Origin: Puteibacter caeruleilacunae
GTDB lineage: Bacteria > Bacteroidota > Bacteroidia > Bacteroidales > Prolixibacteraceae
Assembly (NCBI GenBank): GCA_005217565.1
Contig: SJCO01000001.1
Location: 1 to 64,000 of the forward strand
Length of the DNA: 64,000 bases
Direction of reading: 5' to 3'
Of this stretch, positions 29,950 to 64,000 are shown piece by piece (the first letter of the stretch is position 1; each line of letters opens with the position of its first letter). Under the pieces are notes generated by a model. The model was given only the letters and a program-made list of their open reading frames with translations, was not told the origin of the DNA and did not search any database. A program made the translations under genes and the position numbers.

Positions 29950-30056
29950 GTTTTGATACTGCCAGGTTTGGTAAACGCTGCCAGATCTTTCCAGCTTTGG
30001 CACCTTAACGATCCTTTTTCCTGTTTTCTTTTTTCCGTTTTCCAGAAGGCGAAGCC
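29950..30056. repeat. Dispersed intergenic repeat, copy 2 (reaches into lysR 3' end)
   Basis: It matches copy 1 (5258-5362) over its whole length: the CTGCCAG arms at 29959-29965 and 29978-29984, the AAACGCTG core, CCTTAACGATCC, the pyrimidine-rich TTCCGTTTTCCAG tract and AAGGCGAAGCC. Its last 52 bp encode the C-terminal tail of the LysR protein on the minus strand. Confidence 0.75.
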
Positions 30057-30934: not shown

Positions 30935-31007
30935 TTGTTTGTATTATTATATCTCAAAAAAGCTGAGAGGATTTGTGAATCATTCTGTTAGCAATAAAAG
31001 GATAATA

Positions 31008-31733: not shown

Positions 31734-31737
31734 TTTA

Positions 31738-32229: not shown

Positions 32230-32246
32230 TGTATTGCTTTTTCTGA

Positions 32247-35327: not shown

Positions 35328-35455
35328 TAGTATTTGGATTATATTATTCAAAAATAATAATAAAGTTGAAATGAATATGAATATAGTGTAGAAAATAGAT
35401 CTCTTCACCCTATAACTTTGCAGTGTAAATATTTCTAAAGAATTAATGAAACACA

Positions 35456-36145: not shown

Positions 36146-36237
36146 AAGGATTAGTTTAACTAATGGAGTTTACTTCTCCTAATCGACAGATCTGAAAATC
36201 TAAGAATTGGAGAACCTAATAATCTAAAAATCATAGA

Positions 36238-37398: not shown

Positions 37399-37409
37399 AA
37401 ATTCAAGTT

Positions 37410-44461: not shown

Positions 44462-44817
44462 TGTTTGTTAATTTGAAATCAAATGTAAAGTAAAAAGATA
44501 ACTGGAATTCTACTTGGTAATATTGTTCGGGATATAGGTAAATATGATGAAAGTTAGATAACAGATGGTTACGAGGACAAAATTTAGGTTTAAGCGATTT
44601 TAGATGGGGTTACAATCGTTCAAATAGGTGGAAAATATGGCTAAATCCTGATCGTTCAACGAAACTGTATTTCTTTTGAACGAGAGTGAAATTGTTCTGC
44701 GAGATATTGAATCGAGACACTTTTAAAAGGAGTTAATTTTGGTGTAGTGATTTTAGTCTTGAGGATTGAACCTCTGTAGAATAGCTTTTAAGAGGTTCAG
44801 CGTTGGAAGAATTAAAC
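44462..44817. promoter_or_regulatory. Divergent promoter region with repeated TCGTTCAA boxes
   Basis: This 356-bp gap separates the minus-strand lyase and the plus-strand sulfatase operon. TCGTTCAA appears at 44617-44624 and 44652-44659, and its inverse TTGAACGA at 44676-44683. The last two form an inverted repeat with a 16-bp spacer. The boxes are good candidates for a shared regulator binding site. Just before the sulfatase start a GGAAG at 44806-44810 may act as ribosome binding site. Confidence 0.6.
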
Positions 44818-46239: not shown

Positions 46240-46243
46240 TAGA

Positions 46244-48922
46244 ATGATACGCATGCAATTCAATAAACTAATAGCAGCAATAGGATTGCTTTTTATTGCT
46301 AATACTGGATTTTCACAACAAGCGGAGTTGTCCTTACAAAAGGAGTATCTTGTTCCGTTGATGAGATTAGAGCCATTTCCATCAAGTGGTATTGTCGACA
46401 GAAATGCGCCTTGGTTTTACTGGTCACCTATGGTTAAAAGTAAGTCAGGTGTTAATACCTACAAGTGGGATGATGCTTATCTTTATCAGGGGAGAGTTTC
46501 TAAAAACAAAGATTTCACGGGAGCTTCAACAATAACATCTGATTTACGGGAGTGGGCATTTTTTAATCCCCACAAAGCTTTATCGAAAGGAACATGGTAT
46601 TGGCAGTATGCAACTGTGAATAGGGAGAGCGGAGAAAAAAAATGGTCAGAACCTATCTCATTTGAGATAACTGGTGATGAAAGGGTATTTGTTATTCCTC
46701 GCTTTGAAAAGGTATTACAGCGCATACCCAAAAGTCATCCTCGTATTTTCTGTGAGAAAGAGGATATTGGCAATATGAAATTTCCAGCATCAGAAGTGAC
46801 TTCTTTTATTTCAAAAGTTGATGGAGAATTAGGGAAAGATTTGCCAAAGACATTGATTTATTCGAATAAAGAAGATCTTGCGAAACGTAAAGCTGCGTTG
46901 AGTGAATCTAATTTTAGGTTGTTTGTAGCCAAGCGAACCAAAGAAATTTATAGAAGTGAGAAGCAGGATTTCGAGCAATTTATAAAAGCCTATCTGATTA
47001 CTGGTGATCAAAAGTATATGGATGAGTCACTACGTCGATATGATTATTTGAAAGATCGGTATAATAAAATCATAGAAGCAGACTATTGGAATGACTTTAC
47101 AGAAGGTTTTTATGTGACTATTTCAACGTTGGTTTATGACGTTTGTTACGATCGTTTGAGTGAGAATGTCCGAATGGAAATTCAGTCTTTTTTGAAGGAA
47201 TATCTAGAGGACTCGTATCATCATATATTACACAAAGGAGAACATTTTTCGATTGATAACCACCTATGGCAACATCACTTTAGGAGCTTTTTTGTATCTG
47301 CTTTGGCATTGGCACATCATGTGCCAGAAACAGAAAACTGGATGAAGTATGTTTATGAGGTCTGGTCAATGAGAGCTCCTGTAGGAAGTTTAAATGATGG
47401 ATCTTGGGTTCCTGGCAACGGATATTTTGATGCGAATAAAGAGTCATTGATAACAATGCCTGTTATCTTGTCGCGATTTACTGGAGTGAATTATTTCGAT
47501 CAGCCTTGGTATCATAATGTTGCAGCATATATGGCTTATACTTCTCCTGTGGGACACGTTTCGGGTTGCTATGGAGATAATGCCGATATAAAGCGTGAAA
47601 ACAATATGGATTTTGTTCGTGCAATGACTACAATTAATGGTGATCGTCATGGAATGATGTATTCTAATTTGGGTGAAATACTTGGACATCCGCAGAACGT
47701 GAGAGGTATACGTGAGCCTAAAGATGAAGAGTGTAAATTGCCTATGTCTCTTTATGAGGATGGTAATATTTATTGGTACATGTATCAACCAGAGATTGCT
47801 GATCTGGCAAAAGTTAAGGCAATTAAGTCACCTAAGAGAGCAAGATGTTTTAGGGATGTAGGTATTGTGGCAATGCATACAAATTTATTGAAGCCTGAAA
47901 AGAATCTAATGCTTTCGTTCCGTTCTTCTCCTTTTGGACTGTATGGACACTCACATGCTTGTCAGAATTCCTTTAATATACAATATGGAGGTAAGCCATT
48001 GTTTTTCAGAACAGGTTATTATTCAAGCTTTATAGATCCTCATTCAGTTCATAGTTACCGTCATACTCGTGCTCATAACTCAATATTGGCCGATGGGATG
48101 GGACAAACATTTACGACTTCAGGCTATGGATGGATTGCTCGTTTCATGAATGGTGACCAATTGAGTTATACCTTAGGGGATGCATCGGCGGCCTATTCTG
48201 GTTTGATCTTTAGAGATCTTTATCCTAAACGATTTAAGAAGTGGGATATGGTTGCTAATGAGGATAATGGTTTTGGGGAACCTGGTGTTTCAAAATTCCG
48301 CAGACATATTAGTATGCTTGGTGAAGATATCATTGTGATATATGATGAATTGGAAGCAAATAAACCAGTTGATTGGTCGTGGCTTATTCATAGCAAGGAT
48401 ACTTTAGCCTTAAACGACAATGTATATTACACTGAAAACGGTAAAGGAAAAGGGAAGCTATGGTTATATAGTGGAGATAAAATTAATCTTGATGTTACAG
48501 ATCAGTTCTTCTCGCCTGCAGAGGATTGGCTTGGCAATGGAAAGAAAAGAGGAATTGAGTTTGTGAACCACTGGCATGGAGAAAGTAAAACCGAGACGGT
48601 TGGAAAAACTCGCTTTCTGGCAATTATTCAGGTGAAACCTAATGGTGAAACATTTAATGTTCCAGTGAAAAAGAATGATGGTGTTTTTGAAATTAATGGT
48701 TGGAAGATCGAAGCAGAATTGAAGGCTGATAGGAAAGCTGCTTTGCGCATGGTGAAAGCTGGTGTTGGCGCAATTGATTTTGGAAGTCTGGCTTTTGAAT
48801 TCGAAGGAAAAACATATAAGCACAAAATTGCTGGAAGCTCAATGTTGCTGGAAGTTAAAAATGGTAAGGTTGAGATGCAGGAGGTGGTTGATGAACTACC
48901 ACATGTAGCGAAGTATTATTAA
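46244..48922 (+). CDS. Heparinase II/III-fold lyase with N-terminal DUF4962-type domain
   Basis: An 892-residue secreted protein. The ATG at 46244 is 4 bp after the sulfatase stop; MQFNKLIAAIGLL at 46253 is the alternative. Residues about 30-150 are a two-strand beta domain (FPSSGIVDRNAPWFYW, WAFFNPHKAL, GTWYWQYATV) typical of DUF4962. The toroid (about 150-520) has LSIDNHLWQHHFRSF-like sequence (FSIDNHLWQHHFRSFF). The beta domain has YGHSHACQNSFNIQYGG and HTRAHNS at 607-613, the hallmark loop of heparinase II/III proteins. It is a paralog of the gene at 50098. It probably degrades a sulfated uronate glycan, with the sulfatase as its operon partner. Confidence 0.85.
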   Translation: MIRMQFNKLIAAIGLLFIANTGFSQQAELSLQKEYLVPLMRLEPFPSSGIVDRNAPWFYWSPMVKSKSGVNTYKWDDAYLYQGRVSKNKDFTGASTITSDLREWAFFNPHKALSKGTWYWQYATVNRESGEKKWSEPISFEITGDERVFVIPRFEKVLQRIPKSHPRIFCEKEDIGNMKFPASEVTSFISKVDGELGKDLPKTLIYSNKEDLAKRKAALSESNFRLFVAKRTKEIYRSEKQDFEQFIKAYLITGDQKYMDESLRRYDYLKDRYNKIIEADYWNDFTEGFYVTISTLVYDVCYDRLSENVRMEIQSFLKEYLEDSYHHILHKGEHFSIDNHLWQHHFRSFFVSALALAHHVPETENWMKYVYEVWSMRAPVGSLNDGSWVPGNGYFDANKESLITMPVILSRFTGVNYFDQPWYHNVAAYMAYTSPVGHVSGCYGDNADIKRENNMDFVRAMTTINGDRHGMMYSNLGEILGHPQNVRGIREPKDEECKLPMSLYEDGNIYWYMYQPEIADLAKVKAIKSPKRARCFRDVGIVAMHTNLLKPEKNLMLSFRSSPFGLYGHSHACQNSFNIQYGGKPLFFRTGYYSSFIDPHSVHSYRHTRAHNSILADGMGQTFTTSGYGWIARFMNGDQLSYTLGDASAAYSGLIFRDLYPKRFKKWDMVANEDNGFGEPGVSKFRRHISMLGEDIIVIYDELEANKPVDWSWLIHSKDTLALNDNVYYTENGKGKGKLWLYSGDKINLDVTDQFFSPAEDWLGNGKKRGIEFVNHWHGESKTETVGKTRFLAIIQVKPNGETFNVPVKKNDGVFEINGWKIEAELKADRKAALRMVKAGVGAIDFGSLAFEFEGKTYKHKIAGSSMLLEVKNGKVEMQEVVDELPHVAKYY

Positions 48923-49283
48923 CGGAGACTGGAGAAAGGGAAACCGGAAAAAGGCTTCACCTGGAAAAGGGGGCCGGAGACCTGCCAGTGTGTAAAGCTC
49001 CTGGCAGCGTCTGAGAAAAGGGTTGAAAGGTTAACGGTTAAAAGGTTGAACGGTATCGTTAGTTTGCCTAGGCCGGAAACAACTAACAGTGGGTAGACCA
49101 TAATAACAATAACACGTTAAGAGCTAAGAGTATGGAGCAAAGGTTGTTGGTGTAGAACCAAAGGGGGATGTCTAACGCTCGCCTTTAGGTAAGCTAATGT
49201 TTGTAGAAATGCGACATTATCTTCCACTTCCTTTGTCAAAAGACGCTTCATACAGAAACGAAAGAAATAAAAATTATAAAACA
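48923..49283. repeat. Gene-free region holding a diverged copy of the dispersed repeat
   Basis: Downstream of the lyase stop come a purine-rich tract (GAAAGGGAAACCGG), AAGGCTTCACC, and arms CTGCCAG (48982-48988) and CTGGCAG (49001-49007), then ATCGTTAGTTTGCC. These elements match, in the gene's orientation, parts of copies 1 and 2. The rest of the region has no gene that I can support. Confidence 0.6.
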
Positions 49284-49982
49284 ATGAAGAATAAGCTATT
49301 ACTAATCGGATTACTTTTTATTGGACTAGGAGCCTTTGCTCAGGTGAGTGAAAAAGAATTGGCTCAGGATTTTCAGAAAGAGGTTGTATCTCCACAGGAT
49401 CTTGCCAAATGGGATTTTTATGGACTGGGTAAAGCCTACACCGAAGTGCATAACCAGTTTTGTATTACTGAAGCAGATGTGTCAAAAGGAGCAATGATTG
49501 TGAGCCCTAAGCGTTATGGTGAAAATATCATAGTTCGATATAAAGCGATGACCTTGACTCACGCAGCTGTATTGGTAGCAATGCTGTCAGCAAGTGATCA
49601 TGGTAAATCTACAGGTTTAACCGTTCCTGAGAATCATGATGGGGCTATGCCTTTTTGGAGAGATGAAGTCGATTGTTATTTCTTTGCTTTCAGAAATGGA
49701 CCACACAATTTTACGCCATTTGTGCGAAAGTATCCAAAGAAAGATAATACGGCGCTTGGTTCAGCAGAAGAAAATGTAATGTATGCCGGTAAATTTCACG
49801 ATATTGAAGTGGGACGAATAGGCAAGAAACTGTGGCTGAAGATTGACGGTTCATTAATGTTTGATGCAGTTGATGAAAAGCCTTTGACAGAAGGTAGGAT
49901 TGCTTTTAGAACAAGGGGAACAGCGGGATTTAAAGCCGCATTCCTAATGAAGGATTTAGAAATTTATACTAAAAACGACTAA
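49284..49982 (+). CDS. DUF1961-family secreted protein
   Basis: A 232-residue secreted protein; the ATG at 49284 gives a clean signal peptide (KLLLIGLLFIGLGAFAQ), whereas the longer frame has a charged N-terminus. The mature part is beta-rich (ENIIVRYKAMTL, DEVDCYFFAFRNGPHNFTPFVRKYPK in short pieces, YAGKFHDIEVGRIGKKLWLKID), as in concanavalin-like folds, which fits the DUF1961 family seen in sugar-utilization loci. No catalytic residues are assigned. It lies between the two paralogous lyases and may be a small binding or hydrolytic domain acting on the same glycan. Confidence 0.75.
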   Translation: MKNKLLLIGLLFIGLGAFAQVSEKELAQDFQKEVVSPQDLAKWDFYGLGKAYTEVHNQFCITEADVSKGAMIVSPKRYGENIIVRYKAMTLTHAAVLVAMLSASDHGKSTGLTVPENHDGAMPFWRDEVDCYFFAFRNGPHNFTPFVRKYPKKDNTALGSAEENVMYAGKFHDIEVGRIGKKLWLKIDGSLMFDAVDEKPLTEGRIAFRTRGTAGFKAAFLMKDLEIYTKND

Positions 49983-50097
49983 GCTTTTCTGATTTACTTC
50001 TAAAGAACGTAAACAAGGAATAAAGATTGACTCTTTGTATATAGGAGGCCAAATAAGAAAACCTTAAAATCAAATAATCTAAAAATCTTTTAATAAG

Positions 50098-52707
50098 ATG
50101 ATAAGAGTTGCAATGATATTGAGCTTATTGATCACATTAGTTCTTTCTGCTGTGATCAATGCTACAGCAAAAGAGAAGGATGGTGTGGTAAGAATCGAAA
50201 AGGAGGAATTGCTTCCGATATATCGCACAGATCCATATCCATCATCAGGTGAGGTATTGTTTAATGCCCCTTCTTTCATCTGTATGCCTGTGATTAAAGA
50301 AAAAAAGGGGAATAACAGTTATGTCTTTGACTATGATTATCAGTATCAGTTTAGAATTTCAAAAGACTCGAAATTCAAGGATCATACAACGATTACTTCA
50401 GAATTACAGGACTGGACCTTCTTCAATACACATAAAGCATTAGAAAAAGGTGATTGGTATTGGCAATATGCGTATGTAAAGGGAAACGAAAAGAAGTGGC
50501 ATGAGCCAATTAAATTCTCTGTTACCGGGAATGAAAGCGACTTTGTCAGTCCTTCGTTTATTGATCTAAAGGCAGCAATTGAGCAGGTTCATCCGCGAAT
50601 GTTGGCTACACCAGAGCAAGTTGGTAAGATCATTCTTCCTGAACATGTGAAAAATGAGATGAAAACGCGTATTGACAAGAAGGTTGGAAAGCAAATGCCT
50701 GTCTTGATTTTCAATAACAAAGAGGTGATGGCACAAAAAAAGAAAGAGCTTTCGCCGGAGCGTTATCATCTTTATATTACCAAACGAACTCGCGATAACT
50801 GTAAGAAGTTTTCAAAGGAGACTGCCGAGGTGGTGATGATGTATTTGCTGACCAAGGATCAGAAATACAGGGATGAAGCATTGAAAAGATATCGCTATTT
50901 TAAGAAGACTTATGCTCGTATTATAGAGTTAAAGCAATGGTTAGACTTTACTGAGGTCGCTTATCATGCGGTTGAGTCGGAAGTATTTGATATTGCCTAC
51001 GATGTGTTGACACAAGAGGAGAGAGATGAAATTATTAAGGATCTTTCTAAAGCACAGGAAAAGACTTATCGAAAGTTTATTCATAAACCTTCACATGCGT
51101 TACATGATAGTCACTTCTGGCAAATCGAATTGCGTAACTTCTTCTTGAACTCTTTGGTCTTGGTAGGGCATAATCCAGAAGCAGACAAGTGGTTGAATTA
51201 TGCCTATGACTTATATATTGTTCGTGCTCCTACTGGTAGTTGGAACGATGGGGGCTGGGCTCTTGGAAACAAATATTTCTCAGCGAATCAGGAAACCTTA
51301 TTTGTGATGCCATATTTGTTGTCACGCATAACCGGCTTTAACTATTTTTCAAAGCCTTGGTATCAAAATGTAGCTGAGTATTTATTGTATACTTCCCCGA
51401 TTAAACATCGCACTGGTTCTTTTGGTGATGGTACGGATATGTCGAGTGAGAATATGGTGCCACTGGTAAAAGCTTTGAACAAAGTACAATCTTCAGTAAG
51501 TGGTTTGTTATACGAGGAGTTGTACGATAAGTATGGATCAAAAGCATCGGAATATCCTCGACTTACGTGGTATTCACATCAACCATTAAAACTAAAAGTT
51601 CCAGCACCGGAAAAGGAAAAGCTTGCATTAGCAAAAGACTTCAGAGATGTTGGTAATGTGGCGATGCACACTACGTTAAAAGATCCTAATAAGGATTTAT
51701 TTGTAGCTTTTCGATCTAGTCCGTATGGAGTGGTTGGTCATGCACATGCTGCGCAAAATGGCTTTTCCATTTTCTACGGAGGCGAACCATTGTTTTATCA
51801 TACAGGGTATTATACCAATTGGGCAGACTTACATACGATGCAGTCGTATCGTCATACGAGAGCTCATAATTCAATTTTAGCTGATGGTATTGGTCAGAAC
51901 TTTCATACTTCTGGTTATGGATGGATACCACGATTTGTTTCTGGAGATGTGATCAGCTATTCCATGGGAGATGCCTCTAAAGCATATTCTGGTACTATTG
52001 TCCGTGATGAAATTGCAAATCAGATGAAAAAATATGGAATTTCAGCTACTCCAGAGTATGGTTTTGGAGATGCGGGAGTGACAAAATTTCGCAGACATAT
52101 GTTCTTACTGCGACCAGGAGTCGTGGTAATCTACGATGAGTTGGAAGCAGAAAAGCCTGTTGCCTGGAGTTGGATGAGTAATAGTCGCTGTTTGATGGAG
52201 TTAAAGAATGAAAAATTGGTGTTGAAGTCATCAAAAGGTTCTGCATCAATGACGCAATTCTGTAGTGCAGACCTTGATCAATCAATTCGTGATACGTTTG
52301 TTTCTCCTCCTGTTGATTGGCAAGGAAAGGGAAAGAAACTGAATATGAATGAAACCAGTTATCATTATACAGCAAAGACTAGTAAGACTAAGAATGCACG
52401 TTTTTTATCTGTTATTCAGATTGGAGATAAGAGGTTGAAGCCATTAGTTGTAAAAAAGATTAATGGAGGATACCAGGTAGGAGAATGGATTATACAAGCA
52501 GAACTGGATGCCAACAGACCTGCTCAATTTAAGATGACAGATGGAAAGAGTGCTGTTATCTCAATGGGGAATGAGCAGGTTGTATTAGGAGAAAAGACTT
52601 TCAGTCCACAGTATAAACGTTCAACGTTTCTTGTTGAATTTAAAGATGGTAAGCCTGTAGTTCAGGAAGAAGTTGATCAACTTCCTAATGCTGCAATGTA
52701 TTATTAG
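50098..52707 (+). CDS. Heparinase II/III-fold lyase, paralog of the gene at 46244
   Basis: An 869-residue secreted protein with a signal peptide (MILSLLITLVLSAVINATA in part). It has the same order as the paralog: DUF4962-like beta domain (PSSGEVLFNAPSF, WTFFNTHKALEKGDWYWQYAYV), toroid with HDSHFWQIELRNFFLNSL, and heparinase II/III beta domain with VVGHAHAAQNGFSIFYGG and HTRAHNS at 586-592. Identity to the paralog is clear along the whole length but not high, so specificities may differ. In the toroid, the matching position of the Asn-His pair reads D-S-H, so the residues that neutralise and abstract the proton may differ between the two copies. Confidence 0.85.
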   Translation: MIRVAMILSLLITLVLSAVINATAKEKDGVVRIEKEELLPIYRTDPYPSSGEVLFNAPSFICMPVIKEKKGNNSYVFDYDYQYQFRISKDSKFKDHTTITSELQDWTFFNTHKALEKGDWYWQYAYVKGNEKKWHEPIKFSVTGNESDFVSPSFIDLKAAIEQVHPRMLATPEQVGKIILPEHVKNEMKTRIDKKVGKQMPVLIFNNKEVMAQKKKELSPERYHLYITKRTRDNCKKFSKETAEVVMMYLLTKDQKYRDEALKRYRYFKKTYARIIELKQWLDFTEVAYHAVESEVFDIAYDVLTQEERDEIIKDLSKAQEKTYRKFIHKPSHALHDSHFWQIELRNFFLNSLVLVGHNPEADKWLNYAYDLYIVRAPTGSWNDGGWALGNKYFSANQETLFVMPYLLSRITGFNYFSKPWYQNVAEYLLYTSPIKHRTGSFGDGTDMSSENMVPLVKALNKVQSSVSGLLYEELYDKYGSKASEYPRLTWYSHQPLKLKVPAPEKEKLALAKDFRDVGNVAMHTTLKDPNKDLFVAFRSSPYGVVGHAHAAQNGFSIFYGGEPLFYHTGYYTNWADLHTMQSYRHTRAHNSILADGIGQNFHTSGYGWIPRFVSGDVISYSMGDASKAYSGTIVRDEIANQMKKYGISATPEYGFGDAGVTKFRRHMFLLRPGVVVIYDELEAEKPVAWSWMSNSRCLMELKNEKLVLKSSKGSASMTQFCSADLDQSIRDTFVSPPVDWQGKGKKLNMNETSYHYTAKTSKTKNARFLSVIQIGDKRLKPLVVKKINGGYQVGEWIIQAELDANRPAQFKMTDGKSAVISMGNEQVVLGEKTFSPQYKRSTFLVEFKDGKPVVQEEVDQLPNAAMYY

Positions 52708-52809
52708 TTCACGCCGACAGCTCAAAAGATGCTGTCAGGTGTTTATTTCACCTTTCAGCGTCCGACAGTACCAGGAAGCGTGTGATTGCACTTAAATTAA
52801 CTTGACAAA

Positions 52810-55800
52810 ATGAGGAGAATAAATATTGCATTGAGCGTTGCACTATCCATCGGAATGATTTCCGGAGTGTCAGCCAAACGCCATGAATTAAAAAATAAGG
52901 AAAGTAAAGGGTATGATAAAGTCATATCCTTTGAGAACAAGGTGGACTTAAAAGTCTGGGAAGGTAAGAAGATTGCCTTAAATACTGATCATGCAAAGCA
53001 TGGTGAGCATTCTCTAAAGTGGAGTTTTGCTGCAGGGGATAAACTGTTAACTCAGCATGCTGATATCCTTAAAGCTGTGATCTCCAAAGAGGGAGGGATG
53101 AAGGCATGGATTTATAATGAGAAACCTATCGATGGAGCATTGACAATTCGTGTTGCTAACAAGACTTTACTTGCTCAGGATAAAGCTCCTTATGAGTTTG
53201 GGTTTAAATTAAATTTTAAAGGATGGCGCGCTTTCTGGGTACATTTTAAGGAAGATGCAACCAACATGCAGGTGAAGGCAAATGATCATGACTTGAATAC
53301 AGTTGAGATTATTGCTCCTAAATCAGCCGGGGCACTATTCTTTGATCACATTGAATTTACCGAAGAAGTAAGTTGGAAAAGAAGTGAAGATCAGTTTAAA
53401 ATTATCAAGAATGAAATTGATCATTTTGGAGTAAGTCATCCATGGGAATATACCAACTTTTGGAGTAAACAACCTGTAACGTCGGCAAAACCATTTAAGT
53501 GGGATGAGAAGAGTGCTCAAGAAGTGAAGGTGATAGAAAAACGTTATCATGACTGGGTGCTGGGAAATGATCCTGATTACGCATATGAGCCATTAAAGAT
53601 CAGAAAGCAGGAGCTAGACAAGCTAATTGCACAAGCAAAAGACGTTTTCGAATCACTAAATATCAAGAGAGATAAGAAAGGTAACTTGAGTGGAACTCCT
53701 CTTTACACATTGCGCGAAGGTCATCAGCCTTACATGGCATCTTTGTCTATGAATGTATTGCTTCAACTGGCTTTAGATTATAAAGTGAATGGTAATACTA
53801 AGAGTCTCGACGATTATTTTCTGGCACTCGATTATATGAGAGACCAAGGTTGGGCATATGGTAGTTCTATGGGAACTATTGACCACGAGCTGTTGAGGCA
53901 TGCTGGTTATTTTCATTCGATTTATCTATTGAAAGATGAATTGAAGAAAGCTGGAAGATTACAGGAAGAGATTAAAACAGCGCAGTGGTTTCTGAACTGG
54001 AATGAGTTGTACAATATGCCTGACTACGTAGGGTGTACAGCAGACTTTATGAGATCTGTATTCATGTATCGATTACTTATTGTGATGTGTCAGGAGGATG
54101 GTCCCGAGAAGTTGAGAGATATGACCTATTATAGTCAGTGGATCAACAACTCTATGCGTATTGCTTCTGGATTTGCAGATACATTTAAACCTGATTTCAC
54201 GGGGTATCATCACCGCGGAGTGTATATGAATGCCTACTCTCCAGGTGCTTTCCATTTAGCTTCAGTTGTTAGTTATATGCTTCATGATACGCGCTTCGAA
54301 GTGAAGCCTGTGCAACTTAATAATCTGCGACAGGCTTTAATAACAGCACGCATTATGAATTGTAAATATTCTATTCCATTAGGTGTATGCGCGCGTTTCC
54401 CTGAGAATACTTCTAACTTTTCAGATATTCTGCCAGCAATGGGATATCTTATTAAGACCAACCCTAATGACAAAGAGTTACTTGGTTATTTTAAAGATTG
54501 GTGGGCTCCCGAAAGTGAATTGTTTAAAGAAGAGTTATTTAACAAGGCTGATAGTCGATTGAGCTTCTTTCATACGTTGGGAGCAGTGCAAATGATGAAC
54601 GAAGTCGCTGAAATCAGCGGAACTCCAGCAGAAAGTCCCCAAGGCAACTGGTTCAAACCATATGCAGGCTTAAGTATCCATCGTCGCGATAATTGGATGG
54701 CATCAGTGAAGGGATGGAGTAGCTATATCTGGGACTTTGAGTCTGGTAAAGGCGAGAATGTCTTTGGTCGTTATGAAGGATGGGGAGCATTACAGTTCTT
54801 TACTGCAGGTAATCCTGTAAGTGATCGTGCAAGTGGTTATATGCCTGATAAAGGATGGGACTGGAGCAGAATTCCAGGAACTACTTCCATCAAGCTTCCA
54901 CTAAGAGATATGGAGCATAATAAGACAGGGAATAGCGCTATCTACAAAGAAAGTAAACACAGAAATTTCACTGATCAGACTTTCCTTGGTGGGGTGTCCG
55001 GATCTGATGGTAATGGGGTGTTTGCAAATAAGATTCATGATACGGCCTTTAATCCTACATTTTGGGCACGTAAATCGGTATTCTTTTTTGATAACCTGAT
55101 TGTATGTCTTGGTGATGGGATAAAAAATAATGATGCAGAACACGGAACCGAAACTACATTGTTTCAGATTTACGATCATGGTAAGAGCTTAGTTGTAAAT
55201 GGAAAAGAGGCTAAAAAGGGAAGTGCCGACTTTAATGATAAGGTTGTATTTGAAGCTCCTGATAACAACCTGTATTTAATTCCAAACGGACAGCAGGTGA
55301 AGTTTTATTATGGAGAACAGAAAAGTATCAACGAGTCGGGTAAAGGAGAAACTGTTGGTACATATTATACAGCCTGGTTAGATCATGGAAATGCACCTGC
55401 TAATGCTACTTATGAATATGCGGTGATTGCTGATCATAAGAACGCCAATTTAGCTATTGATGATGTTGCTTACACTGTTATTCAAAAGAATGAAGATGCC
55501 CATATTGTTAAAAGAGGAAACCAAACAGGTTATGTGATGTGGGATGCTGAGTATACATTAAATGAAGGAGTGCTGGCTAGCGTAAGTACTCCTGGTTTGG
55601 TAATGATTACAGCTAATGGAAAAGAGGTGGAATTGGCTTTTTCTGATCCTGATCTACGCAGACCAAAAATGCTGAATATTTCAGCAATGGCGCATGAAAA
55701 TGTGATTGCTGAATCTCATGCCCAATTGGTGAGGATTACTCTAAATGGTAAATATAAGGTTGATCGTACATCGAATATAAAATTCGTTGGATATTTTGGA

Positions 55801-55872
55801 AATCAGACCATCCTGGAAGTGATGTGTAAAGATGGTGCAACTTACCGTGGGAAAATGATTATGATTAAATAG
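52810..55872 (+). CDS. PL8 chondroitinase-ABC-like polysaccharide lyase
   Basis: A 1020-residue secreted lyase, very close in length to chondroitin ABC lyase I (1021). The N-terminal jelly-roll (about 30-200) contains VISFENKVDLKVWEG. An alpha/alpha toroid (about 230-600) and the super-sandwich domain (about 620-1020) follow. The toroid carries GYHHRGVYMNAYSPGAF with His468 and Tyr476, and Arg529 in C-A-R-F-P; Glu644 in W-D-F-E-S lies before NVFGRYEGWG. These match His501, Tyr508, Arg560 and Glu653 of the Proteus enzyme by my alignment. GWDWSRIPGTTSIKLPLRDM is a PL8 hallmark. It should cleave chondroitin-like uronate glycan; the sequence shows it as a chondroitin-type lyase, not its exact polymer. 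Confidence 0.9.
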   Translation: MRRINIALSVALSIGMISGVSAKRHELKNKESKGYDKVISFENKVDLKVWEGKKIALNTDHAKHGEHSLKWSFAAGDKLLTQHADILKAVISKEGGMKAWIYNEKPIDGALTIRVANKTLLAQDKAPYEFGFKLNFKGWRAFWVHFKEDATNMQVKANDHDLNTVEIIAPKSAGALFFDHIEFTEEVSWKRSEDQFKIIKNEIDHFGVSHPWEYTNFWSKQPVTSAKPFKWDEKSAQEVKVIEKRYHDWVLGNDPDYAYEPLKIRKQELDKLIAQAKDVFESLNIKRDKKGNLSGTPLYTLREGHQPYMASLSMNVLLQLALDYKVNGNTKSLDDYFLALDYMRDQGWAYGSSMGTIDHELLRHAGYFHSIYLLKDELKKAGRLQEEIKTAQWFLNWNELYNMPDYVGCTADFMRSVFMYRLLIVMCQEDGPEKLRDMTYYSQWINNSMRIASGFADTFKPDFTGYHHRGVYMNAYSPGAFHLASVVSYMLHDTRFEVKPVQLNNLRQALITARIMNCKYSIPLGVCARFPENTSNFSDILPAMGYLIKTNPNDKELLGYFKDWWAPESELFKEELFNKADSRLSFFHTLGAVQMMNEVAEISGTPAESPQGNWFKPYAGLSIHRRDNWMASVKGWSSYIWDFESGKGENVFGRYEGWGALQFFTAGNPVSDRASGYMPDKGWDWSRIPGTTSIKLPLRDMEHNKTGNSAIYKESKHRNFTDQTFLGGVSGSDGNGVFANKIHDTAFNPTFWARKSVFFFDNLIVCLGDGIKNNDAEHGTETTLFQIYDHGKSLVVNGKEAKKGSADFNDKVVFEAPDNNLYLIPNGQQVKFYYGEQKSINESGKGETVGTYYTAWLDHGNAPANATYEYAVIADHKNANLAIDDVAYTVIQKNEDAHIVKRGNQTGYVMWDAEYTLNEGVLASVSTPGLVMITANGKEVELAFSDPDLRRPKMLNISAMAHENVIAESHAQLVRITLNGKYKVDRTSNIKFVGYFGNQTILEVMCKDGATYRGKMIMIK

Positions 55873-55968
55873 TTCAGAAAGTCCTTGGTTTGTATTAGAG
55901 GTATGAATAGTTGGAAAGCAAAGGAATAAATCAGGCAAGAAACTGGTGAAATGAAAAACAACAGATAG

Positions 55969-56814
55969 ATGAGAAAAGTACTAAAATCTTTATTATTTGT
56001 AGGTCTATTATTATTGGGGATCTTGTGGTATGTAAAATATGTAGTTACCGACGGTGATGCAGTTCAATTAGATGTTGAAAAACTTGCCCCACAAGATGGC
56101 CGAGTTTTGGTAATATTTCCTCATCCTGATGATGAGGTTAGTGTTTGTGGAACCATCGCATTACTTGATAATGCAGGGATTGAAACGAATTATCTTTGTT
56201 TGACTCGAGGAGAAAAGGGAGCAAAAGAAAAGGGACAAACAGCATTGAACCTGATGAAAGAACGAACGCAGGAACTTAAAAATTCAGCGGCTATTCTAGG
56301 TATTGATATTCTTGTTCAGGATACCTTGCCTGATGGAGAATTGAGTGCAATGAATGATTCTATCATTAAAGATGTTATTCTAAGGGAGATTAATCGGTTC
56401 AAACCAGAAACAATTATTACATATGATACAAATAAGGGATTGTATGGTCATTTGGATCATATAAAAACATCTCGTAATGTAGTACAATTGTGTGAACAAT
56501 ATTCTGACTCATCTTTTTTTAGTGTGAATTCGGTTGTTTCTTTTACTCTGCCAGAAAAGCTTGTGGAGGTATTTTTGAATAACTCGAAGAAATTCAAAAA
56601 CAGGTTTTATAAGATTAATGACTTGAACTTGCCTAAACCAGAATTTGCGGTCAAGACTTTTAGCAGTCGCTCTCAGGTTGAAGCTGTCTTAAATAACTAT
56701 AATAAAAGAAAGATTATATCTAATCTGATGCCTCATAAACGTTGGTTGCCAAAGGATTTATACTATTATATACACGATCGGGAATATTTTTATTATTCGT
56801 GGAAGCGAAACTAA
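55969..56814 (+). CDS. PIG-L (LmbE)-family deacetylase
   Basis: A 281-residue protein with an N-terminal membrane anchor (about 8-24, SLLFVGLLLLGILWYV). The zinc motif H-P-D-D-E is at 52-56 and the third ligand is in G-H-L-D-H at 160-164. These are the signature residues of PIG-L enzymes, which remove N-acetyl groups from sugars. It lies in the lyase operon, 96 bp after the PL8 gene. A de-N-acetylase here would act on an N-acetylated hexosamine of the glycan or of its fragments; this is inference. Confidence 0.9.
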   Translation: MRKVLKSLLFVGLLLLGILWYVKYVVTDGDAVQLDVEKLAPQDGRVLVIFPHPDDEVSVCGTIALLDNAGIETNYLCLTRGEKGAKEKGQTALNLMKERTQELKNSAAILGIDILVQDTLPDGELSAMNDSIIKDVILREINRFKPETIITYDTNKGLYGHLDHIKTSRNVVQLCEQYSDSSFFSVNSVVSFTLPEKLVEVFLNNSKKFKNRFYKINDLNLPKPEFAVKTFSSRSQVEAVLNNYNKRKIISNLMPHKRWLPKDLYYYIHDREYFYYSWKRN

Positions 56815-56833
56815 AAGAGAGAGGTAATAAATA

Positions 56834-57547
56834 ATGAAACGGACTATTTTCATCTGTTGTCTGCTGTTGTTTGCAGGTACTGTATCGGCGCAAAAGAGTT
56901 CTTACGATTGCCGGAAAACAAATGAACCCATTGATGTTGATGGCAATTCGAATGAGCAAATTTGGAATCAGATAGAACCAGTTTGGTTTGTGCCAAACGA
57001 GGTTGAGCCGTTAAAAGAAAAATCATGGTTTAAGGCTACCTGGGACCAGGATTATCTCTATTTTTTGTTCTGGATCGAGGATCAGGATATTATAGGTAAG
57101 ATGACCCAGAGAGATGATCATATCTGGCATGAAGAGGTAATGGAGATTTTCATTGATGCTGATTGTAATCCAAAGGATTATTATGAGTTCGAATGGAATC
57201 CATTGAATACATTGCTCGATCTGTATGTGCTGAATCCTGGTTGTAATAGAGATATCATCCGACAATGGTGGTCGTGGGATTGCCGTGGTATAAAATCAGC
57301 AGTTTATGTTGATGGAACCTTAAATAACAATAGCGATAAGGATAAAGGGTGGAGATTGGAAGTGGCAATCCCTTTTAGTGAGATTCAAACAGCAGAACAC
57401 ATTCCTCCTCTTCCGGGAGATGTGTGGCGGTTTGATTTAACGCGTAGAGAAGGTACTGAAAAAGGTGGTGATTTACAGAAATCATCGTGGTTGCCTCCAT
57501 CATGTCACTTCCCTTTGTCGTACGGAAAATTGAAATTTAAAAAGTAA
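56834..57547 (+). CDS. CBM9-like secreted carbohydrate-binding protein
   Basis: A 237-residue secreted protein (signal ends GTVSAQ). The start DCRKTNEPIDVDGNSNEQIWNQ, the ATWDQDYLYFLFWIEDQDI strand pair and EVMEIFIDADCNPKDYYEFEWNP-like middle are typical of the family 9 carbohydrate-binding fold. The end has W-R-F-D-L-T-R-R-E. No catalytic residues are expected. It probably binds or presents glycan fragments. It is 19 bp after the PIG-L gene and 5 bp before the glycosidase gene, so the three are co-transcribed. Confidence 0.82.
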   Translation: MKRTIFICCLLLFAGTVSAQKSSYDCRKTNEPIDVDGNSNEQIWNQIEPVWFVPNEVEPLKEKSWFKATWDQDYLYFLFWIEDQDIIGKMTQRDDHIWHEEVMEIFIDADCNPKDYYEFEWNPLNTLLDLYVLNPGCNRDIIRQWWSWDCRGIKSAVYVDGTLNNNSDKDKGWRLEVAIPFSEIQTAEHIPPLPGDVWRFDLTRREGTEKGGDLQKSSWLPPSCHFPLSYGKLKFKK

Positions 57548-57552
57548 AAAAA

Positions 57553-60330
57553 ATGATAAAGACAAGACTAACTATTATTGCTTGCCTTTTTAGCTTGTGG
57601 GGAGTTGCACAACATGACAATATCGACCATAAGCTTATAAGCGATTATGAATATTCGCATGATTTAGATTTGCCTGATTGGGGACCGTATTCAAAAAAAT
57701 ATAATGGTATATCTCATGTTACCAGCAAGGAACAGGGTTTCCGTTTCGATTTAAGTTTTGCCACAGGATACTTCCAACGATCAAAGATGGTAATTCCTGA
57801 TGTGGTAGAAGAAAGAGATTATTTTATATGGGATGTAACACCCGACTTAAAGTATCTGGGCTATAATTATCAGCTTGAATGGAAAGATAAAGTAAAGTGT
57901 GAGGTGGTGTTCTCAGAAATTGATGAGAACAGTCGCTTTATTACAGCGAAATTTGTGAATAATACGGCTACGCGACAGGATGTTGTTTACAACCTGTTGG
58001 CTTCAATGAACTATCCGCGTAAAAAGGAGAAAGGTGTTGAACAGCCAGTCTTGCCAGTAAGAGTTGAACTTCCGACAGGAGGTATGTGGATCGATGGTAT
58101 GGAGTACGCTTCTATGGATTATGCCAATCCACGATTTGATGACAACCTTATTTACGATGGCTTTACTAAAGGTGAAGTGTATGGAGGTGGCATGGTCAAT
58201 TCACGGGCATTGGGACGTAACTTTGGAAAAGATAAAGGTGATCAGGTGATCTATCGCTTTAAAAGTATCGATGCTTCTAAAGGTTTGATGTTGATACGTT
58301 ATAAGACAAATACAGGTGCAGATGCGGCATTCAATGCAGAAGGGATTGTTAATGGTGAGATCGTCTTAAAAGGTTCAACGGAGTTCACTACGCAGCAGAT
58401 CCCTGTTTCTTCAGGAGATCTTCTTAAGTTAACTGCCACAAAGGAGAATTCAGCAGTGGTTATTGATGGTTTTGCCTTGGTAAATGACGTGAATCAGGTG
58501 AAGTTTATTCAGGAAGAGTTTACTCCTGTTCCAGAAATCACAAAAGGACCAGTGCCGAATTCAGTGATTCTGAACTATGAGAATACTGATCAGTATTATG
58601 GTATCTTATGGGAGGGGCCAGAGTTTTATCAGGTGGAAATTCACTCAGATAATCTAAAGAACCTGCCTGCCTATAACAATCGTAACATTGATGTTGCCAG
58701 TCATGTTGAAAATGATCGAGGTCATTTTACTGATATATTAGTTTATGGAATTGAAGTGATGCCATTCTCTGATAACGAGTTGAATGGATTGGTGACTGTT
58801 GGAACGAAAGCAGAGGTGGAAAGTGCGTTGAGAAAGTTTAGATCAGCAAAAACAAGCTACAAGAATACGCGTGATAAGATATACAATGAGCAACTTGCAG
58901 GACCATGCATTGATCGTTATGATTTTGCCATGAAGCGTATGGAAGCAGTAATGGCAAACAACCTGGTATTTCCAATTATCTGTCAGAATGAATATATCAA
59001 GCACTATACTCCTGGTCGTAGATGGAACAGCTTGTATACATGGGATGTTGGAATGATTGGTATTGGAATGTTGGAAATGGATCTTAATCGATCAGTTAAT
59101 ATATTAAATACCTATACAACGGCACCAGAGAATCCAAATGCATTTATTCATCACGGAACTCCGGCGCCAACACAGATTTATCAGTTTTTAGAGATCTGGA
59201 ATAAGACGAATGACAAGGAGTTTCTGAAGCATTATTACCCACGGTTGAAGAAGTATTATCAATTCCTGTCAGGAAGCTACGGAACATCGATTACAAAAAT
59301 GAAATCGGGACTAACCAAAACATGGGATTATTTCTATAACTCTGCGGGGTGGGATGATTATCCTCCTCAGCGCTGGGTGGAGCATCACGATAGAGAAAAC
59401 TTGATTACTCCTGCAATTTCACCTACACATGCCATCAGAAGTGCAAAGATATTGAGGAAGGCAGCTGAACAGCTGGGATTAAATGATGATTTAAAGATGT
59501 ACGATGCAGACATAAAGTCTATCAGTAAAGCTTTGCAGAAGTACTCCTGGGATGAGGAATCGGGTTATTTCTCGTACGTAAAGCACAATGAGCAGGGAGA
59601 GGTTATTGATATTCTGCGTTCAGAGAATGGGGAGAATATGAACATGGGAATGGATGGTGCCAGTCCGATTATTGCCGGCGTTTGTACTGATGCTCAAAGA
59701 GAGGTGATTGTAGAAAAGTTGTTGGATAAGACACGCCTTTGGACGAAGTTGGGTATTTGTGTTGATCAAAAAGCATCTCATGCTAATGTGAATGCTTATG
59801 CAAACGAAACAGTATGGATTTCTCATCAGTGGTTTTTCTGGAAGAGTTTACTGGATCTTGGATACGGACAAGAAGCATGGGAGTTGGCTGACGTGGCATT
59901 AAGTGCATTTAGCGATGAAACCAACCGAACTTATCACTGCTGGGAGCACTATACACAAAATAGTTTGTTGGGAACAGGATGGCATCAGTTCTCGGGATTA
60001 AATGCTCCTTTAGTAAACTGGTATCATCTGTATTTTAAGTCAGGCAATGTTTATGGAGGATTCGATTTTTGGATAAAATCAAAGGAGATGAATGAGGATT
60101 GCACCAAATCATCTATAGAGTTTGAATTGTCAGATCTACATAGAAGCAAGAAAAAGACTGTACTGGTATCGATGAATGATAAGTATGATTACAAGGTGAA
60201 GTTAAATGGGAAAGTGATTCCTCATAAAAGAATTACAGAACACACCTTAATGGTTGCTGTTCCTTCTAGTACCGCAACAAATCGTTTAGTTATAGAACAG
60301 GTAGGAAAAAGAGAAAGAACTCTGTTTTAA
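57553..60330 (+). CDS. Six-hairpin (GH37/GH63/MGH1-like) glycoside hydrolase
   Basis: A 925-residue secreted protein. A beta-sandwich N-terminal part (about 20-400) contains WGPYSKKYNGISHV and a jelly-roll stretch. The alpha/alpha barrel (about 440-830) carries YTPGRRWNSLYTWDVGMIGIGM, TWDYFYNSAGWDDYPPQRW and GLNAPLVNWYHLYFKSG, motifs shared by trehalase- and GH63-type enzymes. A small beta tail with a K-x-N-G-K motif closes it. It is the last gene of the operon, so it likely trims released oligosaccharides; the sugar is not known. Family placement is from motif shape only. Confidence 0.78.
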   Translation: MIKTRLTIIACLFSLWGVAQHDNIDHKLISDYEYSHDLDLPDWGPYSKKYNGISHVTSKEQGFRFDLSFATGYFQRSKMVIPDVVEERDYFIWDVTPDLKYLGYNYQLEWKDKVKCEVVFSEIDENSRFITAKFVNNTATRQDVVYNLLASMNYPRKKEKGVEQPVLPVRVELPTGGMWIDGMEYASMDYANPRFDDNLIYDGFTKGEVYGGGMVNSRALGRNFGKDKGDQVIYRFKSIDASKGLMLIRYKTNTGADAAFNAEGIVNGEIVLKGSTEFTTQQIPVSSGDLLKLTATKENSAVVIDGFALVNDVNQVKFIQEEFTPVPEITKGPVPNSVILNYENTDQYYGILWEGPEFYQVEIHSDNLKNLPAYNNRNIDVASHVENDRGHFTDILVYGIEVMPFSDNELNGLVTVGTKAEVESALRKFRSAKTSYKNTRDKIYNEQLAGPCIDRYDFAMKRMEAVMANNLVFPIICQNEYIKHYTPGRRWNSLYTWDVGMIGIGMLEMDLNRSVNILNTYTTAPENPNAFIHHGTPAPTQIYQFLEIWNKTNDKEFLKHYYPRLKKYYQFLSGSYGTSITKMKSGLTKTWDYFYNSAGWDDYPPQRWVEHHDRENLITPAISPTHAIRSAKILRKAAEQLGLNDDLKMYDADIKSISKALQKYSWDEESGYFSYVKHNEQGEVIDILRSENGENMNMGMDGASPIIAGVCTDAQREVIVEKLLDKTRLWTKLGICVDQKASHANVNAYANETVWISHQWFFWKSLLDLGYGQEAWELADVALSAFSDETNRTYHCWEHYTQNSLLGTGWHQFSGLNAPLVNWYHLYFKSGNVYGGFDFWIKSKEMNEDCTKSSIEFELSDLHRSKKKTVLVSMNDKYDYKVKLNGKVIPHKRITEHTLMVAVPSSTATNRLVIEQVGKRERTLF

Positions 60331-60952: not shown

Positions 60953-61479
60953 TTTTTGAATAATTCTTAGGATAAACTTAGTAAAAATTGAGAGATAGTC
61001 TGAAAAAATAGGAACTAATTTAAGTTTCAGTTCGGCTAACGCCTCACGGTCTCAGGTTATACGTTGAAGTTGTTGCAGTGGTAATTTTTACCACTACAGA
61101 ATCTAGGTTCAGGTTAAAAGATTCAAAGCCTTAGGCTCTCGCACCCAGATTGGCCTCCTGAAAAAGGTGATTGATTTAGCAGCTGTTGGTTAGTAAAACT
61201 GGGAAGCTGAGAGCTCTGCTCGAAGATCACCCAGTTGCACTTAGCAACAGCAATAAATCGATTGCTTTTTTCAGGCAGCCTTGACCTTTTTGCTTCTTTT
61301 TGGGCAAGCCAAAAATGAAGGCCCATCTGGCAGGACAATAAGAAATAAGAAAATAGACCTAATAATTCAACAAAAATTAAACTTATTTCAACTAGAGCTT
61401 AATTGGTTAAGACATAAGAAAATTAAAGAAATAAATGCAATTGGTTTCTTTGGTAAGACCAAAAACTAATGCCTTACCA
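60953..61479. other. Gene-free region upstream of sigma factor, with hairpins and repeat-like motifs
   Basis: No supported gene. A perfect hairpin AGTGGTAA/TTACCACT (61077-61084 and 61088-61095) is present. The stretch near 61288-61340 (CTTTTTGCTTCTTTTTGGGC and following GCCAAAAATGAAGGCCC) looks like a repeat type common in related genomes, but no second copy is visible here. Confidence 0.5.
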
Positions 61480-62052
61480 ATGAAAACAGATGCTGACCTG
61501 GTTAAAGCAATTGCTAATGGCGGCAAGAAGGATTTTGAGATACTTTTTAAGCGCTATTACCCAAGAATGTGTTCATACGCATTCACTATTCTTAAGGATT
61601 CAGAGTTATCAGAGGATATCGTTTCGGAATTCTTCTTGAAGTTGTGGGATCGGTATCATATATTGAGAATTTCAGGATCTGTTTCATCCTATTTATTTCA
61701 GTCAGTTCGTAATGACTGCATTAATTATCTAACTCGAGAAAAATATAATAAAAATACCGTCTCAGAGAACGAAATAACATTGCTCCATTTAAGACTTAAG
61801 TATAATTGTTCAGAAGATAATCCTTACATGAACTTAGTGTCCAAGGAACTAGCAGAAAGAATTCAGAAAGAGATAGCAGCTTTACCTCCCCAATGCAGAG
61901 AAATTTTTGAATTAAGTAGAATTGAGCAGCTGTCGCATGAGGAAATTGCTACTCGACTAGGAATATCAAAGAATACCGTAAAGGTGCAGATATATAGGGC
62001 TTTATTGCGATTTAAAATACGATTGTCTCCATACCTGTCAATATTCTTTTAA
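61480..62052 (+). CDS. FecI-type ECF sigma factor
   Basis: A 190-residue extracytoplasmic-function sigma factor. The ATG at 61480 gives MKTDADLVKAIANGGKKDF. Region 2 has YYPRMCSYAFTILKD and SEDIVSEFFLKLWDR. Region 4 has LPPQCREIFELSRIEQLSHEE and RLGISKNTVKVQIYRALLRFK in parts. It is followed by an anti-sigma FecR and a SusC, the standard order of a signal-transducing sugar receptor locus. It likely directs transcription of that SusC operon when the receptor signals. Confidence 0.93.
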   Translation: MKTDADLVKAIANGGKKDFEILFKRYYPRMCSYAFTILKDSELSEDIVSEFFLKLWDRYHILRISGSVSSYLFQSVRNDCINYLTREKYNKNTVSENEITLLHLRLKYNCSEDNPYMNLVSKELAERIQKEIAALPPQCREIFELSRIEQLSHEEIATRLGISKNTVKVQIYRALLRFKIRLSPYLSIFF

Positions 62053-62104
62053 AAAAAGATAAAATTCTTGTAATACCAGTTGATTGAATTTGTGTCATGC
62101 TTAT

Positions 62105-63160
62105 ATGACAATGAAAATCTCACATTTAAATGACATTCCTGAAGAGATCAAAAGCTCTATTATTCATTATTTGAAGGGGAATTATTCTGATTGTAATGCG
62201 GTTGAATTGGCTGCTTGGTTATCGGAAGATACTTCACATGAGAAGCTGTTTGAGCAATTTGTGCACTTGAAAAGTGGTGACGAAATACTGTTAGCTGAAA
62301 AACGTTTTGATCCGGAAATAGGATGGGATGAGTTTAAGCGTAGACAAAGGGGGAGAAACTCATTAAAACCAAGGTCTATTGGTGTTTTACAGATCATGCG
62401 TTATGCTGCGATTTTTATCATTGCATTGTGCTGTGGTGGCTATGGGATGTATTTATTACATGATTTGCAAGCTGAAACAAGTACGAGAATGGTAGAATAT
62501 AAAATTCCTTATGGTTCTACGTCTGAGTTGACTCTTGCAGATGGAACAGTCGTGGAAATAAACTCAGGGACTTCCATTAAATATAACGAGGGCTTTGGTA
62601 AAAGCAATAGAGATATAGACCTCAGTGGTGAGGCTTTTTTTCGTGTGGCAAAAAATGAGGAATTACCATTTGAAGTCCATGCTAAGAATATTACAGTAAG
62701 GGCAGTTGGTACAGCTTTTAATGTTAAAGCTTACACTGAAGATTATACCGTAAAGACTATCTTATCAGAAGGTATTGTTGATGTGATCGATGTAAGAAGC
62801 TCGAAAGTTCGATTGAAACCCAATCAGATGGCATTGTTTGATGAACGGAATAGTACGCTGCAAGTATCAGATGTAAATGCAGAGAAAGCAATTGCGTGGC
62901 GTTCAGGACAATGGGAAGTTCATAATATGAATTTAGAGGAGCTAGTGTGTGTGCTTGCACGAAAATTCGATGTGAAATTTACCTTTAAAGATGAGGAAAT
63001 CAAGCATATGAAATTTGGTGGAACCATCAGAGGCAATGATTTGAAACAGATATTGAATGTCATATCTGCAACTGCTCCTATAGATTATAAGATTGATGAT
63101 AATGATATTGCTTTTTCTATAAGTCATGACAGACTAAGTGATTTTAATTTGCTGCAATAA
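62105..63160 (+). CDS. FecR-family anti-sigma factor
   Basis: A 351-residue anti-sigma factor of the FecR type. I chose the ATG at 62105; ATG at 62111 is close and a TTG upstream is unlikely. Residues 1-90 are cytoplasmic and would hold the sigma factor. A membrane helix lies at about 97-118 (MRYAAIFIIALCCGGYGMYLL). The periplasmic FecR domain has the YGSTSELTLADGTVVEINSGTSI and GEAFFRVAKNEELPFEVHAKNITVRAVGTAFNVKAY motifs in pieces. A DUF4974-like C-terminus (MNLEELVCVLARKFDVKF) follows. It would pass the signal from the STN domain of the SusC downstream. Confidence 0.93.
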   Translation: MTMKISHLNDIPEEIKSSIIHYLKGNYSDCNAVELAAWLSEDTSHEKLFEQFVHLKSGDEILLAEKRFDPEIGWDEFKRRQRGRNSLKPRSIGVLQIMRYAAIFIIALCCGGYGMYLLHDLQAETSTRMVEYKIPYGSTSELTLADGTVVEINSGTSIKYNEGFGKSNRDIDLSGEAFFRVAKNEELPFEVHAKNITVRAVGTAFNVKAYTEDYTVKTILSEGIVDVIDVRSSKVRLKPNQMALFDERNSTLQVSDVNAEKAIAWRSGQWEVHNMNLEELVCVLARKFDVKFTFKDEEIKHMKFGGTIRGNDLKQILNVISATAPIDYKIDDNDIAFSISHDRLSDFNLLQ

Positions 63161-63260
63161 TGGATGAGGGATCCTGGCCAGATCTCTCTCTACAAGTTAG
63201 TATTGCATGTGCGAAAGGTTAATCCTTTTAATTAAGCTAAAACCAATTAAATCAAATTGT

Positions 63261-64000
63261 ATGAAACGAAAATGTAAGTTGTGGTCGGGGATTCGATTGA
63301 ATCAGCGAGGGATTATCCTTGCACTGATCATTTTATTCTTTTGTAGTAGTATCGAGAGTTTATCGGCTTCTGTACTTCAATTGGATAACAAGTTCTCAAT
63401 TCAGGTGAAAAATATGACTGTTAAAGAGGTCTTGAAGGAAATTGAAGAACAAAGTGATTATCGTTTTTTTTATAATGAGAATTTTGCTGTCCTACAGCGA
63501 GTTGTATCATTAGATGTGAAAGATGCTGAACTTGAGGTTGTGTTAAAAGACGTCTTTAAAGACTCAGATGTAACCTATAAGTTGATGGATGATAAAATGA
63601 TTACCATTACTCCAAAGGCTAAACCATCAAAACAGAATAAGTCTATTGAAAAGATTACTGGAAAAGTAACAGAAGCTTCAGGGGAGACTCTCCCTGGGGT
63701 ATCTATTGTGGTGAAAGGCACCACAATAGGTACTGTAACTGATTTTGATGGTAATTATGAGCTACTTAATGTACCAGATGATGCAGTGTTGGTCTTTTCT
63801 TTTGTGGGAATGAGAACCCAGGAGATAGCAGTGGGAAGCAATACTTCAATTGATATGGTTATGGAAGAAGATGCCATTGGTCTCGAGGAGGTGGTTGCTA
63901 TCGGATATGGTGTGACAAAAAAGAAAGACTTAGTATCGTCAGTATCGTCTGTGGAATCAGAAGTATTACAAAATCAGCCAACCCCTCGAATTGATCAGGC
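63261..64000 (+). CDS. SusC-type TonB-dependent receptor with STN domain, N-terminal part
   Basis: The frame is open to the window end and starts at ATG 63261. Residues about 1-37 are a signal peptide with a charged start and a hydrophobic core (GIILALIILFFCSSIESLSA). Residues about 40-115 are a Secretin-and-TonB N-terminal (STN) domain (VLQLDNKFSIQVKNMTVKEVL in short pieces, DVFKDSDVTYKLMDDKMITI), which contacts FecR. A carboxypeptidase-regulatory-like domain follows (ITGKVTEASGETLPGVSIVV, TVTDFDGNYEL). The plug begins at LEEVVAIGYGVTKKKDLVSSV. It is therefore a signal-transducing receptor regulated with the FecI/FecR pair just before it. Confidence 0.92.
   Translation, partial: MKRKCKLWSGIRLNQRGIILALIILFFCSSIESLSASVLQLDNKFSIQVKNMTVKEVLKEIEEQSDYRFFYNENFAVLQRVVSLDVKDAELEVVLKDVFKDSDVTYKLMDDKMITITPKAKPSKQNKSIEKITGKVTEASGETLPGVSIVVKGTTIGTVTDFDGNYELLNVPDDAVLVFSFVGMRTQEIAVGSNTSIDMVMEEDAIGLEEVVAIGYGVTKKKDLVSSVSSVESEVLQNQPTPRIDQ

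Follow-up and report, generated by a model that had tools for sequence, protein, structure and literature searches.

A run of genes on the plus strand of the 64,000-nt window (the whole stretch of Puteibacter caeruleilacunae DNA analysed here) would constitute, from position 44803 to 60330, a periplasmic operon for degradation of a sulfated chain of the glycosaminoglycan (GAG) type. Such a target is likely: a sulfated GAG-like substrate, already suggested in the initial annotation, is supported by the complete composite active site of chondroitinase ABC type in a PL8 lyase, by S1 sulfatases, by PL15-type lyases and by the loci of relatives, which carry GH88 genes and sulfatases. As to the kind of chain, our leading reading, to which we give nearly even chances, is a sulfated uronate-hexosamine polymer closer to heparan or heparosan (GlcNAc, 1,4-linked) than to fucosylated chondroitin sulfate; a chondroitin-like chain comes second and fucosylated chondroitin sulfate is unlikely.

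Gene content of the operon and its neighbourhood

The interval 52810-60330 holds four genes only, all on the plus strand: a four-domain PL8 lyase (52810-55872), a zinc N-deacetylase of the PIG-L type that carries a hydrophobic anchor at its N terminus (55969-56814), a secreted CBM9-type carbohydrate-binding protein (56834-57547; PF06452, 3.5e-9) and an (alpha/alpha)6-type glycoside hydrolase (57553-60330). Upstream of the PL8 gene and co-directional with it are genes for an S1 sulfatase (44803-46239; Sulfatase, 3.7e-49, with the CxPxR motif present as CGPCR at residue 98), a PL15-type lyase with DUF4962 and Hepar_II_III_C domains (copy 1, 46211-48922), a 261-aa secreted protein with no NCBIfam match and only a sub-threshold match to DUF6250 (49197-49982), and a second PL15-type lyase (copy 2, 50098-52707). 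Since intergenic gaps in 44803-60330 do not exceed 274 bases, a single transcription unit is plausible from the arrangement of the genes.

The initial annotation had linked the PL8 lyase to a PIG-L deacetylase, a sulfatase, a GH105 enzyme and a GH29 fucosidase. All these genes are present in the window. The linkage holds for the PIG-L gene, which adjoins the PL8 gene, and for the sulfatase gene, which lies outside 52810-60330 in the same co-directional run. The other two, also outside that interval, are merely near, in other gene blocks: the GH105-type unsaturated glycuronyl hydrolase (33314-34423, plus strand; PF07470, 1.6e-78) is 18 kb upstream of PL8, and the GH29 alpha-L-fucosidase (21174-22622, plus strand; PF01120, 8.5e-84; nearest structure 9S0X, 4.7e-209) is 30 kb upstream, in a SusC/SusD block (10686-29860). 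Three blocks of minus-strand genes (30005-33062, 34461-35456 and 42131-44461) separate GH29 from PL8. The last of them encodes a divergent heparinase-fold protein, recognized by its DUF4962/Hepar_II_III_C profile match, with 17-20% identity to the other PL15-type sequences.

Directly downstream of the operon a second locus, running from 61435-64000 of the window into L045:1-9135, contains genes for an ECF sigma factor, a FecR-type anti-sigma factor, SusC and SusD, as well as a sulfatase and a protein resembling heparinase II, in which HepII_C is matched at 2.1e-29. At the other end of the window, positions 3089-3261 match the group II intron family D1-D4-3 (60.9 bits).

The PL8 lyase and its subgroup

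The PL8 protein has Pfam matches above cut-off to Lyase_N (3.8e-30), Lyase_catalyt (1.8e-64), Lyase_8 (5.7e-37) and Lyase_8_C (4.1e-6), and its closest relatives of solved structure are the chondroitin ABC lyases 2Q1F from Bacteroides thetaiotaomicron (3.2e-106) and 1HN0 from P. vulgaris; the description of the protein as a chondroitinase-like PL8 is thus borne out. In the alignment the catalytic tetrad His-Tyr-Arg-Glu falls on H468, Y476, R529 and E644, exactly the residues that had been proposed. The second base His345 and the neutraliser Asp398 of 2Q1F (reference residues of the chondroitinase ABC site are tabulated in PMC12088678) correspond to H359 and D412, and all six residues of the composite site are conserved. 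An AlphaFold model built from the PL8 of the window together with ten loci, of middling quality (pLDDT only 63), matched 1HN0 across the whole length (Z 31.5, 818 aligned residues, rmsd 5.7), with 2Q1F best by Foldseek E-value; the catalytic alpha/alpha, super-sandwich and C-terminal domains of the family are all present. Fold matches to PL40, PL15 and further families were set aside, since they reflect only the fold that lyases of this group have in common.

Architecture, fold and composite site are thus common to the window protein and the chondroitinase ABC lyases, whereas sequence identity is 28%, the dipeptide at the second base is D-H rather than H-H, the catalytic Arg is followed by Phe (R-F rather than R-H), and the distance between the catalytic His and Tyr is 8 residues. 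ABC lyases have a distance of 7 and AC lyases one of 9 (numbering from PMC12088678), while 8 is common to a whole subgroup, in which the motif takes the form HHRGxY[ML]NAY with some variation (HHRGVYMNAY in the window copy), R-F replaces R-H in nearly all rows and D-H mostly replaces H-H. In a tree of 38 rows the window PL8 grouped with proteins from two further genomes of the Prolixibacteraceae (100/100), within a group of 19 rows (99/98 support) that includes eleven Paenibacillus proteins and stands apart from the canonical ABC group containing 2Q1F.

An alternative explanation of these data would be that the PL8 is a diverged chondroitinase ABC acting on ordinary chondroitin or dermatan sulfate or hyaluronan, with the PL15-type lyases being secondary. 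We consider it rather unlikely, though second in rank. The identity of the best solved relatives and the full composite site speak for this explanation; the separate subgroup, its His-Tyr spacing and R-F in place of R-H speak against it, as does the fact that the host genome already holds canonical-type PL8 loci. The 8-Mb host genome has 13 Lyase_8 places, on contigs C1, C2, C3, C9, C47, C48, C53, C100 and C194; two PL8 genes are adjacent on C9 (L071: 13410 and 16386).

The PL15-type lyases

Both PL15-type lyases resemble the exolytic heparinases of PL15_2, represented by BIexoHep (6LJA; 2.1e-117 for copy 1), in the DUF4962 and Hepar_II_III_C domains and in the catalytic His/Tyr/His: residues H337, Y390 and H555 of BIexoHep map to H351, Y405 and H580 in copy 1 and to H339, Y393 and H548 in copy 2. 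Identity to BIexoHep, however, is about 30%, and most of the residues contacting sulfate (R332, R579, K755, R757 and others) are replaced. Taking the catalytic and heparin-contact residues of BIexoHep from PMC7904915, we found, for copy 1 and copy 2 respectively, R332 changed to F and A, R579 to Y in both, R648 kept in the first and changed to Q in the second, K755 changed to L and Q, and R757 to N and K. The same picture was seen in both relatives: His/Tyr/His is kept in all four proteins, position 579 is Tyr in all four, and R332, K755 and R757 are replaced. In the PL15 of the heparin-type locus in G554, on the other hand, R579 and R648 are both intact, and positions 755 and 757 are occupied by basic residues. 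Because most of the contacts to heparin sulfates have been lost, the window copies, judged by these alignments, are not standard exoheparinases.

Loci of relatives and association with heparinase-type lyases

What recurs among relatives is a unit of sulfatase, PL15-type lyase and PL8. The closest cassettes, those of G030 and G516, have the order ROK-MFS-sulfatase-PL15-PL8-sulfatase, where the last sulfatase, adjacent to PL8, is 46% identical to the window sulfatase; no further gene of the window's PL8 operon was found in these two cassettes. The heparin-type locus in G554 contains GH88, PL12, SusC/D, a PL13-like gene, PL15 (49% identity to BIexoHep) and a sulfatase that adjoins the PL15 and is homologous to the window sulfatase (42% identity).

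The association of PL8 with heparinase-type lyases was assessed with PL12, PL13-like and PL15 queries taken solely from the G554 locus, as an outside source. In the first count such a lyase was present in 6/8 Bacteroidota loci of the tree group, in none of the 11 Paenibacillus loci and in 1/18 other PL8 loci. The single exception, G030C14, carries the spacing-8 motif yet is absent from the tree, as is also the case for G011e. With the Bacteroidota loci grouped by motif, a grouping adjusted after the first count with the data in view, heparinase-type lyases were found in 7/10 spacing-8 loci versus 0/16 other PL8 loci; the Fisher p of about 2e-4 is indicative only, given the common ancestry of the loci, the post hoc refinement of the groups and the variable locus sizes. 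This co-location is a further point against an ordinary chondroitinase. We rejected P. chondroitinus as a species that could discriminate between chondroitin sulfate and heparan sulfate, as it has two further PL8 genes.

Of the characterised loci of B. thetaiotaomicron (PMC9067506), the one for heparin and heparan sulfate, BT4652-BT4675, shares PL15 and sulfatase with the window operon; its section BT4652-BT4655 is a set of kinase, transporter, sulfatase and PL15, and a ROK kinase and an MFS transporter are also present in G030 and G516. The window operon differs in having PL8 in place of PL12/PL13, in lacking GH88, SusC/SusD and HTCS, and in the addition of the PIG-L, CBM9 and (alpha/alpha)6 glycosidase genes. 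With the chondroitin sulfate locus, BT3324-BT3350, it shares PL8 and S1 sulfatases; here the differences are the lack of GH88 and the presence of PL15-type lyases instead of PL29/PL33.

Sulfatase, deacetylase and accessory proteins

The solved structures nearest to the sulfatase are 3B5Q (7.7e-55) and, second, 5G2T (5.5e-53), the latter a Bacteroides GAG 2-O-sulfatase. The sulfatase does not separate chondroitin from heparan sulfate, because sulfatases 51-52% identical to it are also found in canonical PL8 loci with GH88, an observation that suits the chondroitin alternative.

The PIG-L gene is real, as had been claimed: its product matches PF02585 (2.3e-26) and has the zinc motif, with HPDDE at residues 52-56 and HLDH at 161-164 (H161xxH164). 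The nearest solved structure is 8BGN, a diacetylchitobiose deacetylase (1.1e-10). Known PIG-L activities are on GlcNAc compounds. Among 139 further genomes from the family, none yielded a relative at 1e-25.

The glycosidase encoded at 57553, a gene missing from the initial annotation, matched PF22422 (1.2e-12) and, at about 1e-4 to 1e-5, YgjK/trehalase; the matches of MGH1-like, GH63 and trehalase type are weak, and a fold model from the single sequence was useless (pLDDT 34). Homologues exist in four other Prolixibacteraceae genomes, none seen adjoining a PL8, and as a second copy in the host genome. The loci of these relatives include GH115 or GH28/GH43-like genes.

Fucosidase and unsaturated glycuronyl hydrolase

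The view first taken of this region was that the substrate is a GAG both fucosylated and sulfated, namely fucosylated chondroitin sulfate or one similar to it, from which GH29 removes fucose. A GH29 gene does occur within the same 40-kb neighbourhood, and in one distant relative, G044, a GH95 gene directly adjoins a sulfatase-PL8 fusion, both points in favour of this view. Fucosylation, nevertheless, is not supported by the loci compared, and we regard this substrate as improbable: the fucosidase stands in another block, apart from the lyases, homologues of GH29 (and likewise of GH105, PIG-L and the 57553 glycosidase) were found in 0/36 other PL8 loci, and none of GH29 in the G030 and G516 cassettes. 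The GH29 gene is accompanied by a SusC/SusD pair, a sulfatase and a beta-helix protein, a setting that would be compatible with a separate fucan-type locus. Titles and abstracts in the literature revealed no system combining fucosylated chondroitin sulfate with PL8, or PL8 with PIG-L.

The G044 fusion is 1609 aa long (L042:16006 to L043:835), and its locus also encodes PL12, GH88 and a DUF3604 protein; DUF3604-like proteins near PL8 were seen in Paenibacillus and in G044 (L049:4774-6279 and L042:3-953). In the window, positions 35456-39085 encode an RraA-like aldolase, an enolase-superfamily dehydratase, an SDR and an SMP-30 lactonase, an oxidative sugar pathway adjoining GH2. Its interpretation as a fucose pathway was dropped: the best matches of the dehydratase are gluconate/galactonate dehydratases, although it stays below their cut-offs.

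GH105, proposed earlier as the partner removing unsaturated uronate, fits this role poorly. Among solved structures the ulvan enzyme 4CE7 comes closest to it (5.4e-87), it bears hardly any resemblance to the GH88 proteins of relatives' loci, and in characterised GAG loci it is GH88 that handles the unsaturated disaccharide (PMC9067506). The scanned window genes include a GH105-type protein and no GH88, and tblastn with GH88 found none in 42.8-64 kb. The ulvan-type relative could also mean that the whole neighbourhood targets a non-animal uronate polysaccharide (a bacterial capsule, an ulvan-like or a glucuronan-like polymer). Consistent with that are the GH115 and GH28/GH43-like loci of the 57553 glycosidase relatives and an alginate lyase (7R2X) within the PL8 family; but GH105 is in a different block, and the relatives' cassette of sulfatase, PL15 and PL8 with ROK kinase and MFS transporter is like that of heparin/heparan sulfate loci. 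Such a target appears to us improbable, if slightly less so than a fucosylated one.

Proposed function

The analysis establishes the gene content, the catalytic residues, the PL8 subgroup, the cassette that recurs in relatives and the loss of residues contacting heparin, whereas substrate, cellular location, order of action, position attacked by the sulfatase and co-transcription are inferred. The PL8 and the two PL15-type lyases would cleave by beta-elimination next to uronates, with His and Tyr as base and acid; the PL15-type lyases are probably exo-acting, because known PL15 enzymes are. In the PL8, H359 would be available for the iduronate epimer, with D412 as neutraliser. Sulfate would be taken off by the neighbouring S1 sulfatase, which may be a 2-O-sulfatase acting on uronate (subfamily S1_9), and the PIG-L protein would deacetylate the amino sugar, whereas the CBM9 protein and the (alpha/alpha)6 glycosidase may be accessories gained in this lineage.

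For a heparan-like chain speak the G030 and G516 cassettes with their likeness to BT4652-BT4655, the sulfatase homologue adjoining PL15 in G554 and the heparinase-type lyases of spacing-8 loci; one PL8 active on heparin and heparan sulfate is on record (PMC11848413). Against it are the nearest characterised PL8s, which are chondroitin/dermatan sulfate lyases (though at only 28% identity), the changes at PL15 heparin-sulfate contacts (four in both copies, R648 in one), the Paenibacillus members of the wider clade, none of which (0/11) had a lyase detectable by the outside queries, and the lack of GH88 among the scanned window genes.

If the spacing-8 subgroup consists of plain chondroitinases, the finding is an ordinary one. 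If the subgroup is heparan-directed, it would be a source of new lyases for the structural study of GAG-like chains, and, because most characterised PL8 members act on chondroitin sulfate and hyaluronan, one short motif would help annotators to split PL8 specificities. One could speculate further, in what we hold to be a doubtful scenario, that the subgroup moved from chondroitin-type to heparan-type or new GlcNAc-uronate chains, paired with PL15 lyases now blind to heparin sulfation and with an N-deacetylase; this would be a hitherto undescribed lyase/deacetylase route for a GAG-like polymer.
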